Below, piece by piece: positions 43,918-56,793 of a DNA stretch of 64,000 bases. Position numbers and translations under genes: made by a program. The notes below the pieces were generated by a model. That model did not search any database. It was not told where the DNA came from and saw only the letters and a list, made by a program, of their open reading frames with translations. The stretch covers positions 62,001 to 126,000 of the forward strand of contig NZ_FQWU01000002.1 in NCBI RefSeq assembly GCF_900129765.1, written 5' to 3'. Position 1 is the stretch's first letter. Each line of letters starts with the position of its first letter. This stretch comes from Massilia sp. CF038 (lineage in GTDB: Bacteria > Pseudomonadota > Gammaproteobacteria > Burkholderiales > Burkholderiaceae_D).

Positions 43918-44355
43918 ATGAACCTGGCCTACGCCTACCCAAAAAGCCGTTTCGAACCCGCCGTACTGGTGGACCTGAATGCCCGTGCCGAGCGCGAACG
44001 GCTTTCCAAGTCTGCCCTGATCGGCTTTTTCAAGCTGGTCGCCGCCTGGAAGCTGCGCGACGAAGACGCGCGCGAATTGCTCGGCGGCCTGTCCTCCTCC
44101 ACGTTCTACGAGTGGAAAAAAAACCCGGACCGCGTGCTCGAAGTCGACCGCATCACACGTATATCGTATTTATTGGGCATCTACAAGTGCCTGCACATCC
44201 TTTACGGCGACAAGCTCGCCGACGAATGGATCACCCTCCCGAATAAAAACCCGGTGTTTGGCGGCCGTACGCCGCTGTCGCAAATGCTGGCCGGCGGCTT
44301 GCTGGCCATGCAAATGGTCCGGAAATTGCTGGATGCCCGACGCGGAGGTCTTTAA
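43918..44355 (+). CDS. Antitoxin of the Xre/MbcA/ParS (DUF2384) family
   Basis: 145 aa, ATG at 43918 with GGAGG 9 nt upstream. Helical N-terminal DNA-binding part (about 1-70) with LSKSALIGFFKLVAAWKLRD and the helix-turn-helix-like LLGGLSSSTFYEWKK, then the toxin-binding domain ITRISYLLGIYKCLHILYGD with NPVFGGRTPLSQMLAGG near the end. It neutralises the RES toxin encoded 2 bp downstream and should repress the pair. Confidence 0.9.
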   Translation: MNLAYAYPKSRFEPAVLVDLNARAERERLSKSALIGFFKLVAAWKLRDEDARELLGGLSSSTFYEWKKNPDRVLEVDRITRISYLLGIYKCLHILYGDKLADEWITLPNKNPVFGGRTPLSQMLAGGLLAMQMVRKLLDARRGGL

Positions 44356-44357
44356 TC

Positions 44358-45041
44358 TTGCCCGTCGTTCCCAAACTCACCACACTGCGCCAGTTCGATA
44401 CCTGCCGCCTGATCCCGTCCCGCTTTGCCGACGTTGAAGATTCTGTCCTGGCCCCACTGGCCGACAGCGACGCCGTGCTGCGCGACTTGTTCACGCTCGA
44501 CAATGCCACCAGTGAACGCCTGCGCGGCGAGTACGGCGGGCTGCCCGGCATCGGCGTGGACGAACTGGTCTTTGGCGTACCGAATTTCCGTATCATCAAT
44601 GCGGCCTATACCTACCCGCGCCCGGAAGGCAGCCGCTTCAATGACGGCGAACGCGGCGCCTGGTATTGCGCTTTCGAAGTCGAAACCTCGCTGGCCGAAA
44701 TCACGTTCCACAAGACGGTGGAATACATGGAAATCGACCGTTTCGACGACAGCGTCACCTATCAGGCCATGCTGGCCGACTTCACCAGCATCTTCCACGA
44801 TATCCGCGGCATCGAAGCCTACGAAGGCTGCCTCGATCCAACCAGCTACATCGAGTCGCAGCAGCTGGCCAACGACTTGCTCGACAGTGGCTCGATGGGT
44901 GTGATTTACCCCAGTGTACGGCGCCCGGCCGGCAATTGCCTGGCCTGCTTCCGCCCTGCCCTGGTCGGCAATGTCCGTAAAGGGCAAGCGTATCGCCTGA
45001 CCTGGTCCGGCTCCCCTACGCCCGTGATTGAAACCATTTAA
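44358..45041 (+). CDS. RES-domain toxin (NAD+ phosphorylase type)
   Basis: 227 aa from the TTG at 44358, with GGAGG 9 nt upstream inside the antitoxin end. RES toxins deplete NAD+ by phosphorolysis. The conserved Arg-Glu-Ser pattern is present: PEGSRFNDGERGAWYCAFEV (Arg about 93), SLAEITFH (Glu about 113) and the Ser of GVIYPSVRRPAG near 204. Length suits the family. The rare TTG start would keep toxin yield below antitoxin yield (inference). Confidence 0.88.
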   Translation: MPVVPKLTTLRQFDTCRLIPSRFADVEDSVLAPLADSDAVLRDLFTLDNATSERLRGEYGGLPGIGVDELVFGVPNFRIINAAYTYPRPEGSRFNDGERGAWYCAFEVETSLAEITFHKTVEYMEIDRFDDSVTYQAMLADFTSIFHDIRGIEAYEGCLDPTSYIESQQLANDLLDSGSMGVIYPSVRRPAGNCLACFRPALVGNVRKGQAYRLTWSGSPTPVIETI

Positions 45042-45897: not shown

Positions 45898-46512
45898 TCA
45901 GGCCGCCTGACGCGACGTCAACACCCGGTCAATCAAACCATACTCCGCACCCTGGCTGGCCGACATGTAGTTGTCGCGGTCCGAATCCTTTTCAATTTGC
46001 GCCAGCGTTTGCCCCGTCCTTTCGGCCAGAATGGTATTGAGACGATGGCGCTGGTACAGCACTTCACGCGCCTGAATCTCGATATCGGCCGCGACGCCTT
46101 GCGAACCGCCGTGGGGCTGGTGAATCATGATTCTGGCATTGGGCAAGGCATACCGTTTGCCAATGGCCCCGGCAGCCAGCAGAAACGAGCCCATACTGGC
46201 AGCAAATCCTGTGCACAGCGTCGACACATCGGGTTGAATGAACTGCATGGTGTCATACACGGCCATGCCGGCATACACCGAGCCACCTGGCGAATTGATA
46301 TACAGCGAAATATCCTTGTTCGGATCGTCGGACTCCAGAAACAGCAGCTGGGCGACAATCAGATTGGCTGATTGCTCGGTCACCTCCCCCACCAGAAAAA
46401 TCACCCGCTCCTTCAGCAGCCTGGAATAAATATCGAAGGCACGCTCGCCGCGCCCGGTTTGCTCGATCACGGTGGGCACCAGCCCCAGTGCCATGGGATG
46501 AATTACAGTCAT
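45898..46512 (-). CDS. clpP: ClpP protease subunit, orphan copy
   Basis: 204 aa. The catalytic triad is complete: S106 in [10 protein letters not shown]131 in MIHQPHGG and D180 in [26 protein letters not shown] and [10 protein letters not shown] are family hallmarks. So an active peptidase is expected. It is not in the usual tig-clpP-clpX-lon order and no Clp ATPase is nearby, so it is likely a second ClpP. It faces an ECF sigma gene, and its promoter region has an ECF41-like TGTCACA-N17-CGTC motif. Confidence 0.93.
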
Positions 46513-46551
46513 CGTCGTCCTTTTGCGGTAAAGTTGAATTACTGACCGCTT

Positions 46552-46579
46552 GACGTCCCTGCTGATATCCCATGTGACA
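46552..46579 (-). promoter_or_regulatory. ECF41-like promoter toward clpP
   Basis: Minus strand: TGTCACA (46573-46579) then 17 nt then CGTC (46552-46555). The ECF41 consensus is TGTCACA at -35 and CGTC at -10. The spacer is 1 nt longer than in the two other sites of this window. The clpP start is 40 bp downstream. Confidence 0.5.
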
Positions 46580-46600
46580 GAAAAAAATAAATAATTTATG

Positions 46601-46627
46601 TGTCACATAGTGACGATGACAAGCGTC
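46601..46627 (+). promoter_or_regulatory. ECF41-like promoter toward the ECF sigma gene
   Basis: Plus strand: TGTCACA (46601-46607), 16 nt, CGTC (46624-46627), 33 bp before the sigma factor ATG. Back to back with the clpP-facing site, so the two -35 boxes form an 8-bp inverted repeat (46572-46579 and 46601-46608). Suggests autoregulation. Confidence 0.62.
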
Positions 46628-46660
46628 AAGTGGCACCAGCACCCTGCAAGGAGATCGACA

Positions 46661-47350
46661 ATGCAAGCAAGTCCCGATTCTGGCACTGCGCTATTCGCGC
46701 AGATGCGTCCGCGCCTGATTGCCATCAGCTGCCGCATCCTGGGCAGCCAGGCCGAGGCTGAGGATGTGGTGCAGGATTGTTTCCTGAAGTGGCACCGGAC
46801 CAACCAGGCTTTGCTGGCCACGCCGGCAGCCTGGCTCACCACCGTGGTACAGCACCAGTCCATCGACCGTCTGCGTACGCGTGCGCGCGATGATGCCTCC
46901 GCGCACACCGCTACTGAGCTGATCGGGCAAACGCCACCCGCCGCACCCGAGGACGAACTGCTGCGCCGTGACACTCTCGGTCAAGCGCTGGCACATATAA
47001 CGGCATGCCTGTCACGCGCCGAGCAAATGGCGTTGGTACTGCACGAAGCCTTTGACTGCAGCCACGCCGATATCGCAGCAGCCCTGGGCACGTCCACCGT
47101 CAATGCACGCCAGCATCTTGCCCGCGCACGCAGACGGCTCCTGGACAACAGAGACAGTCTGACGCACGAGGAAAAAATGTCACGCGAGCGGATCCGCCAC
47201 TTTCAGGCAGCCATTAACAGCATGGATGTACCTGCCATGGTTACCCTGCTTGCTGGCGAACAGCCTGTCTCCGTATGCGACGTGCCGCGCCATCGCCAGC
47301 GCGATACCTGCGCCAACGACAGCCATTTCCACCTCGCACTGGCAGCGTAG
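46661..47350 (+). CDS. ECF sigma factor with shortened C-terminal extension
   Basis: 229 aa from the ATG at 46661 (AAGGAG upstream). Sigma-2 region: RPRLIAISCRILGSQAEAED and the -10 recognition helix to WLTTVVQHQSIDRLR; sigma-4 region: SRAEQMALVLHEAFDCSHAD to TSTVNARQHLARARRR (about 120-175). Then only the first helix of an SnoaL-like domain (RIRHFQAAINSMDVPAMVTL) before an unrelated end. The ECF41 motifs WLPEP, DGGGK and NPDKL are missing, unlike the second ECF in this window. It may be a truncated ECF41 relative or a separate group. Promoter motif suggests autoregulation and control of clpP. Confidence 0.85.
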   Translation: MQASPDSGTALFAQMRPRLIAISCRILGSQAEAEDVVQDCFLKWHRTNQALLATPAAWLTTVVQHQSIDRLRTRARDDASAHTATELIGQTPPAAPEDELLRRDTLGQALAHITACLSRAEQMALVLHEAFDCSHADIAAALGTSTVNARQHLARARRRLLDNRDSLTHEEKMSRERIRHFQAAINSMDVPAMVTLLAGEQPVSVCDVPRHRQRDTCANDSHFHLALAA

Positions 47351-47359
47351 GCAGGCACG

Positions 47360-47992
47360 CTAAGGCCGCTCCACGAAGCGGGGCCCGACAAAGACCCGCG
47401 TGGCATTGCCCCGCTCGGCCTGCGTGTGACGCAGGCGCCGGTCAGACTTGCCCTGTGCCACCGCCGCGTTTGCCAAATCCGCCAGCTTGCTTGCCAGCAG
47501 GCGCGCAGCGAGACGTTTGTTCGCATGCTGACTGCGCTCGCTTTGCACTTTAACGGACAAGCCACTGCCCACATGCGTGGCGCGAATGGCACTATCGGTC
47601 TTGTTGACGTGCTGTCCGCCAGGCCCGGAAGCACGGGTCGCTTCGTAGCGGATCTCGCCCAGCCCGGCGTCGGCGTCCGGCGGCACAAACGCGCTCCCCG
47701 CGAGGAACCAGTTTTTGCGCTTGTGCAAAGTGCGATAGGGGCTTTCGCATACCCATAGCAAACTGCCGCACCAGCGCTCGGCCAGAAGACGGTCCGCATT
47801 GCCTGAAGCAGGATCTTCCAGCTCCAGCAACACCGAGCGCAATGTGCCCGACACCGGTCCGTCGATTTCTTCGATCAGGCGAACGCTGACCCCGTCCCGT
47901 GCGGCCTCGGCATGAATCACCCTCAGGGCCTTGTGTACGCCGAGACAGCACTCGATGGGACCTGTATTGGCCGTAATTTGCAACCAGATCAT
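47360..47992 (-). CDS. prfH: Peptide chain release factor-like protein PrfH
   Basis: 210 aa from the ATG at 47990-47992, overlapping the rtcB stop by 1 bp. It is a release factor homologue with GGQ at 125-127 in ASGPGGQHVNKTDSAIRATH, the catalytic loop that frees nascent peptides, but lacks the stop-codon-recognition domain of RF1/RF2. PrfH with its RtcB partner is reported to rescue ribosomes stalled by cleavage of 16S rRNA at the decoding site, PrfH releasing the peptide and RtcB resealing the RNA. The stretch ERSQHANKRLAARLL is typical of the C-terminal basic tail. Confidence 0.93.
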   Translation of the reverse strand: MIWLQITANTGPIECCLGVHKALRVIHAEAARDGVSVRLIEEIDGPVSGTLRSVLLELEDPASGNADRLLAERWCGSLLWVCESPYRTLHKRKNWFLAGSAFVPPDADAGLGEIRYEATRASGPGGQHVNKTDSAIRATHVGSGLSVKVQSERSQHANKRLAARLLASKLADLANAAVAQGKSDRRLRHTQAERGNATRVFVGPRFVERP

Positions 47993-49185
47993 TAGCAGCA
48001 CTCCCCACGCGTCTTGTAGGTCAGCACCGGCTTGCTGCGAGCGACCACCCGCGCCAGTCCCGCCCCGACCAGGCAATCGAGAACGCTGTCGACAGTCTTG
48101 TACGCCTGCGGCGCCTCCTCGTAGATCAAACCCCGATCGTTGCAGATCACGCGCCCACCCATTGAGGTGCGGCTCAATTGCGCCGGCGTGGCAATGCGCT
48201 CCAGACGCCCCTTGCAATCGGTGCGCTGCCATTTTCGCCCGGCGCCGTGCGCCAGCGAATGCAGGCTCAATGCGCCAGCGTTGGCGACTGGTGCAAGCAA
48301 GTAGCTGTAGTCGTCGCGCGAACCTGGCAACATGACCGGGCCCAGATCACTTGGTGTGGCCCCCTTGCGGTGCAGCCAGCCCTTCGCACTATCGACTTGC
48401 GCGGGTACAACCGTGTTGTGATTGACCTCAAGCACGGGAACCGCCCCGCAACGCAAACGCTGGCAAATCCGTGCCGCAATCACCCGGCGATTCAGTTCGG
48501 CGAACTGAACAGCCGCATCGTGTTGCGCCAGGTAGGCCAGCGCGTCCGCCGTACCATCAGCCAGGCCTGCATGACTGAATTGATCGACATGGTAACGCAG
48601 TACCGCTTGCCCCAGGCCACGGGAACCGCTGTGCACGAGCAACTGCAAGCGCTTCGGTTCGATTGCTGTTTGCGCCACCGTATCGGCGCATTCGACCTGA
48701 TCGACCACCTGCAGTTCGGCAAAGTGATTACCGCCCCCAATGGTGCCAAGCGAACGCAGATGCGAGGTATCAAGACCGGCGTCCGCCAGCGCGGCCGTCA
48801 GCGTTGCTTTGCGCTGTACTAACAGCGGATCGCGCGCTGTCAGCAGCGCCCACTCATCCTCATCCATGATGCGGTCGAGATTGCCGATCTGCTTGTCGAG
48901 CTTGTCGAGCTTTGCCTTGCTGGCGAGGATATCGGTTTGCCACAAGGCCATGCCGCAGCCGATATCATTGCCAACCAGCGCGGGATAGAAGCGGCCAGTC
49001 GAGAAAAATGCCGCGCCGACCGGGTAGCCCCGACCCGGATGCAGATCGGGCAAGCCCACCACGCGCGCCATGCCAGGCAATTGCGACGTGGTTTTCAGTT
49101 GTTGTACAGCAGCGTCTTCGAGCCAGAGGCGTGCCGACGCGATGATCGCAACGCGATCAGAAATAATTTGAACAAAATTGCCCAT
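47992..49185 (-). CDS. rtcB: RtcB-family RNA ligase (PrfH-associated type)
   Basis: 397 aa from the ATG at 49183-49185; a TTG 15 bp upstream (49200) is the alternative, and neither has a strong ribosome site. RtcB joins 2',3'-cyclic-phosphate and 5'-OH RNA ends using GTP and Mn2+. Metal/GMP features: D74 and C77 in GNDIGCGM, GGGNHF (150-155), H185 in HSGSRG and the guanylylated H313 in AHGAGR. Shorter than E. coli RtcB (~408) and of the PrfH-linked branch by context. Translation is coupled to prfH. No RtcR regulator or rtcA is nearby. Confidence 0.93.
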   Translation of the reverse strand: MGNFVQIISDRVAIIASARLWLEDAAVQQLKTTSQLPGMARVVGLPDLHPGRGYPVGAAFFSTGRFYPALVGNDIGCGMALWQTDILASKAKLDKLDKQIGNLDRIMDEDEWALLTARDPLLVQRKATLTAALADAGLDTSHLRSLGTIGGGNHFAELQVVDQVECADTVAQTAIEPKRLQLLVHSGSRGLGQAVLRYHVDQFSHAGLADGTADALAYLAQHDAAVQFAELNRRVIAARICQRLRCGAVPVLEVNHNTVVPAQVDSAKGWLHRKGATPSDLGPVMLPGSRDDYSYLLAPVANAGALSLHSLAHGAGRKWQRTDCKGRLERIATPAQLSRTSMGGRVICNDRGLIYEEAPQAYKTVDSVLDCLVGAGLARVVARSKPVLTYKTRGECC

Positions 49186-49234
49186 GTGATGCCAATCCAA
49201 AAGATGAAACGAGGGATTGGGCGTGGCGGCGCGC

Positions 49235-49251
49235 GGACGAGGAACTCGTCC
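49235..49251 (-). promoter_or_regulatory. Perfect hairpin between the 19-codon ORF and rtcB
   Basis: GGACGAG (49235-49241) and CTCGTCC (49245-49251) form a 7-bp stem with a 3-nt loop, extended by outer GCGC pairs (49231-49234, 49257-49260). No U-tract follows, so it is not a plain terminator; it may affect message stability or rtcB translation. Confidence 0.4.
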
Positions 49252-49266
49252 TGAAAGCGCTAACGA

Positions 49267-49326
49267 TTAGTGCAGGACGTGACCAGCCAGACCCAGAAAA
49301 GGAGTGTTGGACGTAGTAACTTTCAT
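49267..49326 (-). CDS. 19-residue ORF with strong ribosome binding site, upstream of rtcB
   Basis: ATG at 49324-49326 preceded by AAAGGAGTCACC, the best Shine-Dalgarno sequence in this region (7-nt spacing), reads MKVTTSNTPFLGLAGHVLH and stops at TAA (49267-49269). It has no recognised family. It lies 81 bp before the rtcB ATG on the same strand, with the hairpin at 49235-49251 in between. It could be a leader peptide for rtcB-prfH, a small bioactive peptide, or an unused ORF. The ribosome site is the reason for calling it. Confidence 0.5.
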   Translation of the reverse strand: MKVTTSNTPFLGLAGHVLH

Positions 49327-49415
49327 GGTGACTCCTTTCGTTAAAGTGGGTTGGCTTGCTGAGGTCGGGGATAGTAATTTATTTTTATTCAGATGACAAG
49401 CAAAAAATACACGAA

Positions 49416-49847
49416 TCAACTCGGCGTTTTGCGATAGACCGTCTTGCACAGCGCTTCCGTGTAAAACAGCAATCCGTCCTCCACACTGCCGCGCTTCCAT
49501 GTGACCATGATCGCGTTCGATTTGGTGAACAGCTTGCGTATCGCCTGTTCTTGCGGTGTCTCGCTGGCGGCGCCGTTCGGATGTGCGGTCCGATATTCCT
49601 CGGAGTCGTACATGTCGGCAAAGGGCTGCGCCTTTACCTCGCTACCATTCTTTTGCAGAATCGCCACCACGCCGGACGGTGATTTCACCCCTTTGAAATC
49701 GGGATAATTATCGTAAAGATCTTGCAAGGGAACACAGCCGAGTTGCATGTTCACCGGAAACCAGCCTGGCTCGGCGGCGGCGCTGTGCGTTGCAAGTAGG
49801 AGCGTCGGCAACGCCAGCGTCAGAGACAGGATCAGGCGAACAAGCAT
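49416..49847 (-). CDS. Secreted protein of unknown function
   Basis: 143 aa from the ATG at 49845-49847; an in-frame TTG 4 codons earlier is possible. Signal peptide MLVRLILSLTLALPTLLLAT (cut near AAA at about 28), then a ~115-residue domain with two Cys (in LGCVPLQDLYDNYPDF and EALCKTVYRK). I do not recognise the family. It lies on the same strand between yjgR-like and rtcB, 89 bp before the 19-codon ORF; the spacer is AT-rich and may hold the rtcB promoter. Confidence 0.75.
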   Translation of the reverse strand: MLVRLILSLTLALPTLLLATHSAAAEPGWFPVNMQLGCVPLQDLYDNYPDFKGVKSPSGVVAILQKNGSEVKAQPFADMYDSEEYRTAHPNGAASETPQEQAIRKLFTKSNAIMVTWKRGSVEDGLLFYTEALCKTVYRKTPS

Positions 49848-49895
49848 GGTGACTTTCAAAGATAAGAAAAGAAACGCAACGGCTGCTGCGGGCGT

Positions 49896-51446
49896 TTAAC
49901 GCCGTTTCAGAATGGAACCGAGCACGCCGCGAATAATCTCGCGCCCCACGGTCGAACCAATGCTGCGCGCGGCCGACTTGACCATTGCTTCCATGGGCGT
50001 CTGGCGTTTGCTGCTGCTGCCAAACAAATCGCCCAGCCCGCCAATCATGCCACCAAAGCCGCCCGAATCCGCGGGTGCTGGCGCTGGTTGCGATGCCGGC
50101 GCCCGCTTGGGCACTTCAGCGCGGATCTGCGCCTCTTTCTCGGTCGCTGCCGTTGCAGCTGTGCGGCGCGAAATAATTTCGTAAGCGGACTCGCGGTCGA
50201 CGGTTTTTTCGTACACGCCCGCTACCACCGATTGCGCCAGCGCCGTCTCGCGGGCGGCCGCATCGATCGGACCAATTTGAGATGCAGGTGGCAAGATAAA
50301 GGCACGTTCAACCATATTCGGCCTACCCTTTTCATCCAGGAAGGACACTAGCGCCTCACCCACGCCCAGCTCGGTAATTACCTGCGCCGTATCGATCGCG
50401 GGATTGGGGCGGAACGTTTCGGCAGCCGCCTTGACGGCCTTCTGATCGCGCGGTGTATAGGCGCGCAGCGCATGCTGGACGCGGTTGCCCAGCTGACCCA
50501 GCACGGTATCGGGAATGTCGAGCGGATTCTGGGTAATAAAGAACACGCCCACACCCTTGGAGCGAATCAAGCGCACCACTTGCTCTATCTTTTGCAGTAA
50601 CTGCTTGGGCGCGTCCGTGAACAGCAAGTGCGCTTCGTCGAAGAAAAACACCACCTTCGGCTTTTCCAGGTCGCCTACCTCGGGCAAGTTCTCGAACAAC
50701 TCGGACAGCAGCCACAGCAGGAAGACTGAATACATGGCGGGCGCCATCATCAACTTGTCTGCCGCCAGGATATTGACGATACCCTTGCCACGCGCATCGG
50801 TCTGCAGCAGGTCATCGATATTGAGCATGGGTTCGCCAAAGAATTTGTCGCCGCCCTGCTCTTCAATGGCCAGCAGGCCGCGCTGGATCGCCCCAATGCT
50901 GGCCGCAGAAATATTGCCGTACGTGGTGCGGTAATCGGCTGCATTGTCGCCCACGTTTTGCAGCATGGCGCGCAAATCCTTGGTGTCCAGTAACAGCAGG
51001 CCATTGTCATCGGCGATCTTGAACACCAGTTGCAGCACACCTTCCTGGGTATCATTCAAGTTCAACATGCGCGAGAGCAGCAAGGGCCCCAGATCGGACA
51101 CGGTTGCCCGCACCGGATGGCCCTGCTCGCCAAATACATCCCAGAACGTGACCGGGCAAGCGGCCCAGGCAGGCTCATCAAGCTCAAGCGCCTGCAGGCG
51201 CGTCTTCATTTTCTCCGACGCCGCGCCGGCCTTGGCCATGCCGGACAAATCGCCCTTCACGTCCGCCATGAAAACCGGCACGCCGATATTGGACAGCGAT
51301 TGCGCGATGGTCTGCAAGGTCACCGTCTTGCCGGTCCCGGTCGCGCCGGTGATGCAGCCGTGCCGGTTGACCAGGCTCGACAACATCTCCAGGGACAGCG
51401 CCGGCTTGGCGTTCATGTTTTTTGCGATCGGCAGTGAAACGGACAT
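49896..51446 (-). CDS. HerA/YjgR-like ATPase (DUF853)
   Basis: 516 aa. P-loop ATPase of the VirB4/HerA/FtsK type: Walker A GATGTGKT (about 34-41), Walker [13 protein letters not shown] (about 265-276), [15 protein letters not shown] sensor region and the arginine-rich [14 protein letters not shown]. The C-terminal ~80 residues are Ala/Pro-rich then Gly-rich and end in [18 protein letters not shown]. Matches E. coli YjgR (DUF853, ~500 aa), whose function is unknown. Single-copy housekeeping rather than defence-linked as far as the sequence shows; no NurA nuclease is adjacent. Confidence 0.9.
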
Positions 51447-51482
51447 GGCGGTAACCTTAATATAGAGACAGGAAAGTGTAGC

Positions 51483-52289
51483 TTACTTTGGCCCGCCCAC
51501 GTTCACCATTCCCTTGAAGTCATAGGGAATCACCACCGTGTGGACCTTGCCCTCGGCGATGCCTTCGGCGATCTTCATCTGGGCCTGCGCCTGCATGTAG
51601 CTGATGGCGCCGGCGTTGGCATTCAGCGCGGAAATCCGCTCTGCCTCTTTCTTGGCGATCTGGACTTCGACTTCCTTGGTTTTTTCCTCGTTTTTGGCGC
51701 GTACCAGATTATCGGCACTGGCTTTGACAGCATCGCTTGGCACCATGCTGAATACCCGTACCTGCGAAATGATCACGCCGTTCAGTTTTTCGTCGGCCAG
51801 GGTCTTGCTCATGCTGCTCTGGATTTCTTCTTCGATCTGGGCGCGGTTATCGTTCATGTTCAAGGCCTCGTATTTGCGGGCGGTCTTGTACACGGCATTG
51901 CGCGCGGTCTGGTAAATATACTGGTGCATCAGATAGATATCGCCGGAGTTGTCCACCATATGGAAGGAGCGGCTCTTGTTGATATACAGGTCAGATACGG
52001 CCGAAGGCACGATGTTATAGACCACGCTGATATCAAAATCCTTCATGGTTGAATTGTCCGAGGCCAGCGGGTTCAAATCGCGCACATCGACGCTGACATC
52101 CTTGATCGGGAAGGTGAGCACCTTGCCGATCACGGTTTGATTGAAACTGCCGGCCACCAGCTCCGTGCCTTCTATCGTTTTATCAAAATTGACGCGCAGG
52201 CCGACTTCGCCGGTTTCAACAATGGTGCAGCCGGAGGTGGCCAGACCAACACACATCGCAACCGCCACCACTGGAATCAATTTCTTCAT
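51483..52289 (-). CDS. SPFH/prohibitin-like lipoprotein
   Basis: 268 aa. Lipoprotein signal MKKLIPVVAVAMCVGLATSG then Cys21, so it should be lipidated, unlike most SPFH proteins which have a membrane helix. The SPFH/Band 7 domain (about 22-200) includes GEVGLRVNFDKTIEG and VRDLNPLASDNSTMKDFDI, then a coiled segment with NEEKTKEVEVQIAKKEAERI. Similar to the prohibitin-like proteins found in some phages and chromosomes. It follows the YjgR-like gene by 36 bp on the same strand but upstream, so they may share a transcript. Confidence 0.88.
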   Translation of the reverse strand: MKKLIPVVAVAMCVGLATSGCTIVETGEVGLRVNFDKTIEGTELVAGSFNQTVIGKVLTFPIKDVSVDVRDLNPLASDNSTMKDFDISVVYNIVPSAVSDLYINKSRSFHMVDNSGDIYLMHQYIYQTARNAVYKTARKYEALNMNDNRAQIEEEIQSSMSKTLADEKLNGVIISQVRVFSMVPSDAVKASADNLVRAKNEEKTKEVEVQIAKKEAERISALNANAGAISYMQAQAQMKIAEGIAEGKVHTVVIPYDFKGMVNVGGPK

Positions 52290-55688: not shown

Positions 55689-56793
55689 ATGGAAGCCGAA
55701 CGCATCAACGCACTGTCCGCCCTGCTCAACGACCTGACCGAACGTCAGGCCGAACTTCGGAGGTATCTTTGACTTCGATAAAAAGTCAGAGAAGCTCGAA
55801 CAGGTCAACGAAGAACTAGAAGATCCAACCGTCTGGAACGATCCGAAGCGCGCACAAGATCTCGGCAAAGAGAAAAAAGCGCTGGAAGCGGTCGTCCACA
55901 CCCTGATCAAGGCCGCCAACGACCTGACCGACGCCAACGACCTGTTTGCCATGGCGCGCGAAGAAAACGATGGCGACACGCTCGAAGCGGTCGTGGCCGA
56001 CGCCGACACCATCAAGGGCGTCATCGAAGGCATGGAATTCCGCCGCATGTTCAGCGGCCAGCTCGACGCCAACAACTGCTTCATCGACATCCAGGCTGGC
56101 GCCGGCGGTACCGAAGCCCAGGACTGGGCCTCGATGCTGCTGCGTCAGTATGTGCGCTACTGCGAACGCAAGGGCTTCAAGGTCGATATCATGGAACAGT
56201 CCGACGGCGAGGTTGCCGGCATCAAGACCGCGACCCTGAAGGTCGAAGGCGAATACGCCTATGGCCACCTGCGCACTGAAACCGGCGTACACCGCCTGGT
56301 GCGCAAGTCGCCGTTCGACTCGGCCAACGGCCGCCACACTTCGTTCACCAGCCTGTTCGTGTACCCGGAAGTGGACGACTCGATCGAGATCGACGTCAAT
56401 CCTGCCGACATCCGCGTCGACACCTACCGCGCGTCCGGCGCCGGTGGTCAGCACATCAACAAGACCGATTCCGCAGTGCGCATGACGCACGCGCCGACCG
56501 GGATTGTGGTCCAGTGCCAGAACGACCGCAGCCAGCACCGCAACCGCGCCGAAGCGATGGAAATGCTCAAGGCCAAGCTGTACGAGCACGAACTGCGCAA
56601 GCGCATGAGCGAGCAGCAGAAGCTGGAAGACTCCAAGACCGACGTGGGCTGGGGCCACCAGATCCGCTCCTATGTGCTGGACCAGTCGCGCATCAAGGAC
56701 TTGCGTACCAACTTCGAGACCGGCAATACCAAGGGCGTGCTGGACGGCGACCTGGACGACTTCATCTCGGCCTCGCTGAAGCAAGGTGTGTAA
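55689..56793 (+). CDS. prfB: Peptide chain release factor 2 with programmed +1 frameshift
   Basis: 367 aa after a +1 shift: 27 codons from the ATG at 55689 to CTT (55767-55769), then T 55770 is skipped and reading resumes at 55771. RF2 reads UGA/UAA stops; the in-frame UGA at 55770-55772 lets it control its own synthesis. Motif: a Shine-Dalgarno-like CGGAGG (55758-55763), TAT, CTT TGA C. The GGQ peptidyl-hydrolysis motif is at 252-254 in [15 protein letters not shown]. Length as in E. coli (365). It is not a pseudogene. A HAD gene and lysS follow. Confidence 0.97.
55758..55773 (+). other. prfB programmed frameshift site
   Basis: CGGAGGTATCTTTGAC: an internal Shine-Dalgarno, 3-nt spacer, slippery CTT, in-frame TGA and a following C, the canonical RF2 autoregulatory signal. 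Confidence 0.96.

Follow-up and report, generated by a model that had tools for sequence, protein, structure and literature searches.

A conserved short leader ORF upstream of RtcB2-PrfH operons is predicted to act as a ribosome-mediated attenuator

The rtcB-prfH operon of Massilia sp. CF038 is preceded by a 19-codon open reading frame (ORF) that, with a probability of roughly 65%, we read as a ribosome-mediated attenuator of the two downstream genes, resembling the Pseudomonas aeruginosa leader PA5471.1 in position and logic. The ORF lies in the window, a stretch of 64,000 nucleotides (contig NZ_FQWU01000002.1, positions 62,001 to 126,000), and its features are collected in Table 1 in window coordinates. 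RtcB2-PrfH mends 16S rRNA cut at A1493/G1494 (PMC9223846), and such a leader would bear on how this repair gets switched on after ribosome damage.

Family profiles and gene adjacency identify the pair in the window as an RtcB2-PrfH operon. The rtcB product scored 521 bits against TIGR03073 (release_rtcB; cut-off 271.8) and the prfH product 265 bits against TIGR03072 (release_prfH; cut-off 166.65), with rtcB directly upstream and its 3' end overlapping the 5' end of prfH by 1 bp. This overlap, the intact GGQ and the intact RtcB active-site residues had been pointed out in an earlier note on this DNA, and both the ORF reading and an alignment of 17 sequences including the window's, in which the RtcB motif residues (e.g. 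C77, H185, H256, H313) were invariant, agree. Beyond the operon, about 2.3 kb past the prfH end, lie genes for an Xre/MbcA/ParS-type antitoxin and, after it, a RES-domain protein (43918-45041, plus strand). An RF1/RF2-type release-factor gene (351-aa frame, about 56080-56667, plus strand) lies about 8 kb from prfH; five genus relatives (G094, G125, G138, G531 and G537) carry an RF1/RF2-type gene about 6-16 kb from theirs.

The leader is set apart by its ribosome site. An AAAGGAG ends five bases 5' of its ATG, and the corresponding anti-Shine-Dalgarno (anti-SD) duplex of -8.5 kcal/mol ranked first among the 258 ATGs in 44-53 kb and 16th among the 2104 of the whole window, compared with a weak -3.9 kcal/mol at rtcB; prfH reached -7.3. 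The earlier contention that the short ORF has the best ribosome site of the region, and rtcB a poor one, is thereby upheld. A linker of 81 nt separates the leader from rtcB. We found no second copy of the leader stretch elsewhere in the same genome, and the two other rtcB-like genes of that genome, which served as a control, lack an SD-led short ORF in their upstream 300 nt. The possible promoter upstream is weak evidence, since two sigma-70-like sites were found in the scanned 4 kb compared with 1.1 (sd 1.0) in shuffles. Searching window positions 46000-51500 with Rfam 15 returned one match, below its gathering score and elsewhere in rtcB, and none on the leader, while at gathering scores 20 relatives returned three tRNAs and nothing else; the leader would represent an RNA family missing from the Rfam 15 results at these thresholds.

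Table 1. Features of the rtcB-prfH operon and its leader, in window coordinates
Feature	Position	Strand	Basis
Possible promoter TTGTCA-17-TACTAT, sigma-70-like	49371-49399	minus	9/12 consensus matches; weak alone
Leader Shine-Dalgarno region GAAAGGAGT (segment 1, P1 5' arm)	49331-49339	minus	sequence, fold, duplex search
19-codon leader ORF MKVTTSNTPFLGLAGHVLH, stop TAA	49326-49267	minus	ORF with SD; homologues by position
P1 3' arm ACTCCTTTT, anti-SD-like, within leader codons	49297-49305	minus	duplex search, unconstrained fold
Segment 2 TGGGTCTGGC, 5' arm of 2:3, within leader codons	49286-49295	minus	RNAalifold stem in A3, window MFE
7-bp perfect hairpin GGACGAG-TTC-CTCGTCC, probable spacer	49251-49235 (arms 49251-49245/49241-49235)	minus	sequence
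Segment 3 GCCACGCCCA, 3' arm of 2:3; last three bases also needed by P4	49218-49227	minus	RNAalifold, folds
P4 5' arm CCAATCC	49214-49220	minus	sequence
P4 3' arm GGATTGG, SD-like stretch before rtcB	49192-49198	minus	sequence
rtcB (RtcB2 type), 397 aa	49185-47992	minus	ORF and family profile match
prfH, 210 aa, GGQ intact	47992-47360	minus	ORF and family profile match

Conservation of the leader was assessed over loci gathered by PrfH searches and by a profile search of contigs with an RtcB alignment (84,980 species), the latter contributing the best 80 of 460 relatives by similarity, so that the sampling leans toward close relatives. Genomes with a prfH above the cut-off numbered 9 out of 17 in the genus, 18 out of 399 in the order, 6 out of 369 in the class and 11 out of 249 in the phylum; they numbered 24 out of 218 in the family of G951, probably Pseudomonadaceae, and 32 out of 246 in that of G1101, probably an enterobacterial family. 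Of the 80 contig-search loci, 77 had a PrfH match at E 1e-10. Leaving out prfH matches under the cut-off (L009-L031, L050-L061, L070-L079) gave 176 candidate loci (L002-L008, L032-L049, L062-L069, L080-L222), from which five without a recognisable rtcB, two without a start and repeats of the last 150 nt were removed, leaving 140 distinct loci. An ORF of 11-24 codons with AGGAG or GGAGG within 300 nt upstream of rtcB was found in 130 of these 140, compared with 4 of 700 dinucleotide-shuffled upstream regions. Among the ten misses of this strict rule, four have a weaker SD spelling (L090, L102, L108, L198), the leaders of L007 and L207 lie past the 300-nt limit, L171 is doubtful, and in L163, L164 and L170 we found no leader upstream of rtcB. 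The short ORF upstream of rtcB-prfH, whose conservation the earlier note had named as its check, is conserved, and we regard it as a real regulatory leader. A looser rule gave 136 leaders; setting aside L162 and L171 as doubtful left 134, and removing leaders at least 85% alike left 61 representatives.

Several loci depart from the common arrangement. Two Massilia loci (L094, L096) and that of P. aeruginosa PA7 (L132) have leader and rtcB with no PrfH match within the stretch examined. In L007 an insertion carrying an inverted GGACTTACGCAAAA/TTTTGCGTAAGCCC pair sits between leader and rtcB, giving a linker of 230 nt. L190 combines an in-frame TGA in prfH with an altered segment 3 (GGCATGCC), a pattern that would fit joint decay of the gene and its switch. 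RtcB matches occurred in 96 plasmid records, 17 of the 20 listed being from E. coli or Klebsiella, and the one plasmid stretch that we read for a leader, from an IncC plasmid of Klebsiella (L225), carries leader MQNTSTSFAGLVR, rtcB and prfH beside sul1. Phages gave 321 records with RtcB matches, every one below 60% identity.

Three stems within the leader and linker appear relevant to control of rtcB: P1, which joins the leader SD to leader codons; 2:3, which joins leader codons to the segment before rtcB; and P4, which encloses the rtcB SD-like stretch. For the window, P1 pairs 49331-49339 with 49305-49297 at -11.3 kcal/mol (p 0.065 against shuffles), 2:3 reached p 0.035 in the duplex test, and P4 alone did not rise above shuffles (p 0.37); 2:3 and P4 share 49220-49218. 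Over the 61 representatives the mean z against shuffles was -1.93 for P1 (32/61 at p<=0.05) and -1.96 for 2:3 (35/61), and P4 was the weakest of the three (mean z -0.78; 13/61). By group, P1 reached p<=0.05 in 28 of 44 representatives of the largest group, in 4 of 15 of the Oxalobacteraceae type, to which the window belongs, and in 0 of 2 from Comamonadaceae; the corresponding figures for 2:3 were 9 of 15 in the Oxalobacteraceae type and 0 of 2 in Comamonadaceae. Each arm also paired better with its own partner than with swapped ones (mean z -0.82 for P1 and -0.82 for 2:3). Because the duplex searches began at ORF base 14, P1 was in part bound to fall outside the reach of a ribosome sitting on the AUG. 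In place of the window's P4, relatives show AATTCC/GGAATT, ATTTCC/GGAAAT or ATCCT/AGGAT by eye.

Alignments point to the same long-range stem. We used two, A2 with 41 of the 76 loci having linkers of at most 105 nt (12 loci, that of PA7 among them, were excluded by hand) and A3 with 18 Oxalobacteraceae-type loci out of 23 (dereplication left 19, and L090 was omitted), and in both RNAalifold, run without a given structure, returned 2:3 as the sole stem. Pairing holds in 95.5% of the A2 cells; the covariation score there, 0.226, compares with 0.129 (sd 0.015) in shuffles, none of 500 being as high, although kinship of the rows alone can beat shuffles in such a test; slid controls scored 0.085 or less. 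Both-side changes occur in three of the six pairs, for example from GC to AU in seven rows; two of the five measures, both-side changes (104/500) and further pair types (172/500), did not beat shuffles. In A3 the UGGG and UGG bases of 2:3 are kept in 17-18 of 18 rows, and most core columns are invariant, which leaves slim covariation. Compared across these loci, the conservation of P1 and 2:3 is well supported and that of P4 weakly.

The unconstrained fold of the window contained P1, 2:3 and the 7-bp hairpin (z -1.67, equalled or bettered by 12 of 200 shuffles), and because P1 and 2:3 abut in the window they can coexist. The hairpin had been described before as perfect and as a candidate for control through melting; it is indeed present and perfect, and the regulatory role is not borne out. 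It is predicted as a consensus hairpin in a 15-sequence Oxalobacteraceae-type alignment and is absent from the A3 consensus, and by eye relatives have hairpins of other sequence at its place or short linkers without one. The hairpin is therefore probably a spacer, with P1, 2:3 and P4 as the switching stems. Two Massilia-type loci (L008, L120) carry a second stem, CGACCC/GGGTCG, that lengthens P1; at -23.0 and -24.0 kcal/mol, theirs were the strongest among the 15 duplexes listed.

We calculated how accessible the rtcB start would be under constrained folding, using a ribosome-sized block on the leader AUG or stop as a crude model of the ribosome. The mean opening energy over the 61 representatives was 11.17 without a block, 9.80 when the block sat on the AUG and 12.28 when it sat on the stop; the stop value exceeded the AUG value in 53 of 61, and opening was easier with the AUG block than without a ribosome in 51 of 61. 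Scrambling segment 2 abolished the stop-AUG difference (-0.14, compared with +2.48 intact; Wilcoxon 2.8e-11). Group means kept the same order, AUG easiest and stop hardest, in all three groups (104, 18 and 12 loci), and 11 of the 134 loci showed the opposite order by a margin above 0.3 kcal/mol. Values for the window itself ran in the same direction and were small (12.49 with none, 11.99 at the AUG, 12.26 at the stop, in kcal/mol). Stem 2:3 is well supported across loci; in the window, where it has three bases in common with P4 and the calculated switch is small, leader codons, downstream segment and the region before rtcB may be linked by mutually exclusive stems. That translation of the leader sets rtcB-prfH output, as the earlier note had supposed, is thus predicted through RNA structure, and the part of the proposal that invoked melting of the 7-bp hairpin is not supported.

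The attenuator that we favor would work as follows. Healthy ribosomes, loading at the very strong SD of the leader, would translate the whole short ORF and terminate at its stop; while there they would cover segment 2, blocking 2:3, so that P4 would shut the weak rtcB site and little repair protein would be made. A ribosome that initiates without moving on, whether through a damaged decoding centre, an antibiotic or a missing charged tRNA, would sit on the SD and AUG, where it would block P1 and free segment 2 to pair with segment 3. Stem 2:3 would then compete with P4 over the shared bases, and rtcB-prfH would be translated. With no ribosome, P1 would keep segment 2 occupied, and the switch would therefore respond to a stuck ribosome and not to mere emptiness. 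We infer that the device operates in the Massilia source species, that it acts at the translational level and that cleavage of the decoding centre is a natural trigger. More tentatively, and short of an even chance, one ancestral RNA switch may guard RtcB2-PrfH across beta- and gammaproteobacteria, sensing ribosomes that initiate and do not elongate, which is the lesion that RtcB2 and PrfH repair; P1 would tell jammed from idle, and control of MexXY in P. aeruginosa would be a later use. If the leader is a general damage sensor of this kind, its trigger could be read with one reporter in E. coli, and the drug adaptation through armZ and MexXY would be a side effect of an alarm for ribosome repair.

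Segments 2 and 3 could instead serve transcription attenuation, where the state of leader translation would determine whether an intrinsic terminator or an antiterminator forms. For P. aeruginosa this model has been published (PMC12057347, PMC13041342); the 2:3 logic would suit it as well, and Rho-dependent versions may also be compatible. Between the window's leader and its rtcB our scan found no terminator-like site, and such sites occurred in 7 of 134 leader-linkers compared with 10 of 134 mononucleotide shuffles, a weak negative, as the scan may be insensitive: it also finds no terminator in the leader of P. aeruginosa PA7, a species for which one is proposed. P4 encloses the rtcB SD, which suits translational control, and we regard transcription attenuation as unlikely, if still a serious contender.

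In erm and SecM-type leaders the nascent peptide itself arrests the ribosome, and were the peptide of the present leader to do so, RNA pairing would be secondary. The leaders form three main groups, most being of the CTTTGCAGG type, with a PFLGLAG type in Oxalobacteraceae (the window's own) and a SLWAGSAVAGL type in Comamonadaceae, and conservation of the peptide within groups (PFLGLAG; TLCRSRLA; SLWAGSAVAGL) is what arrest would lead one to expect. A GC(A/G)G nucleotide motif, found in 94 of 136 leaders and missing from 42, is read in one shared frame in 80 of the 94, which also suits arrest, and in another frame in the remaining 14, which does not; the leaders as a whole thus show two frames and no single conserved peptide. 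In P. aeruginosa, codons 3 and 4 of PA5471.1 affect control, so that codon identity can matter, and they do so when tRNA end maturation is defective (PMC13041342). Within the window's genus, however, an indel shortens the ORF (MQKLNTTAPFLGLAG) while the bases that follow stay similar, and stem 2:3 covaries. Because the commonest motif is read in two frames, RNA pairing is, on this comparison, conserved more than the leader peptide, and arrest by the peptide appears improbable. The view of the leader as conserved for its peptide was dropped on account of the second frame. The earlier note had looked to a conserved short ORF with synonymous-biased changes: the ORF is conserved, and a purely peptide-level signal is not seen in the wider set, the common motif being read in two frames. 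We also considered a mimic of the 16S 3' end and set it aside because stem 2:3 accounts for the bases.

Plain translational coupling, with the leader delivering ribosomes or keeping the mRNA open and sensing nothing, would fit the excellent leader site next to the poor rtcB site (-3.9 kcal/mol) and the short linkers of 53-75 nt in many Enterobacterales-type loci. Across loci, however, linkers span 47-274 nt, which is long for coupling, translating the leader is calculated to close the rtcB start and not to open it, and in P. aeruginosa interrupted leader translation raises downstream expression (PMC13041342); we hold coupling to be very unlikely. Equally hard to credit is a leader that senses specifically the loss of the 16S 3' end and not a jammed ribosome; on that view ribosomes without this end would fail at the leader and start instead at rtcB, whose site is weak. 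In its favor are the contrast between a very strong SD at the leader and a weak one at rtcB, and the position of the A1493/G1494 cut (PMC9223846) 5' of the anti-SD. Against it, the calculated opening of rtcB is easier when a ribosome occupies the AUG than when none is present (51/61), and the known armZ inducers include aminoglycosides and chloramphenicol (PMC12057347), drugs that are not rRNA-cutting toxins.

The attenuator reading places the leader beside PA5471.1, a published 13-aa antibiotic-responsive leader that precedes armZ-PA5470 (PMC12057347, PMC13041342, PMC3516279). As PA5471 (ArmZ) is termed an RtcB-like ligase and PA5470 is prfH (PMC12057347), a leader peptide has already been described for this gene pair, and the earlier note was wrong to state that none had. 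In position the two leaders agree, PA5471.1 preceding an RtcB-family gene that is transcribed together with a release-factor gene, and the window leader is likewise a short ORF with a strong SD upstream of an rtcB-type gene. Stalling or interruption of its translation is reported to raise armZ and full translation to keep armZ off (PMC12057347, PMC13041342), in agreement with the direction that we calculated. A similar rule found the leader of P. aeruginosa PA7 (MIQFSTLCRLRLA), with 13 codons, Gln 3, Phe 4, a strong SD and the CTTTGCAGG motif, and from the matching length and the Gln 3/Phe 4 pair we infer that it is PA5471.1. The two leaders also differ: PA5471.1 is published as transcription attenuation feeding MexXY efflux, whereas the window leader has 19 codons, PFLGLAG and an 81-nt linker in which a terminator-like site was not found. 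A 2025 review states that leader control of an anti-repressor appears unique to MexXY (PMC12057347), and among the open-licence papers that our searches listed, no title or abstract opening describes the leader outside P. aeruginosa. The breadth of the leader over RtcB2-PrfH operons and its RNA-level anatomy look unreported in the searchable literature.

The same gene pair as in the window makes up the operon of E. coli ATCC 25922, where knockout and complementation of the genes showed that RtcB2-PrfH protects from colicin E3; the main text of that report contains no occurrence of "leader", "upstream" or "hairpin" (PMC9223846). An unannotated leader (MTNPLSMTLCRPFQD) precedes rtcB in one E. 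coli record, which is not that of ATCC 25922, and E. coli K-12 (L224, 740-980) keeps the same leader ORF before a broken ykfJ-prfH. The K-12 linker has extra sequence relative to that of L223. The window leader belongs to the PA5471.1 kind, and what looks new is a device tied widely to RtcB2-PrfH operons and not to MexXY control. In leaders of the erm and trp type, the place where a ribosome stands on a short ORF decides which of the exclusive RNA stems forms, and the present leader would be like them in that respect. It differs from them in that the start codon seems to be the position that counts, with the peptide free to vary between groups.
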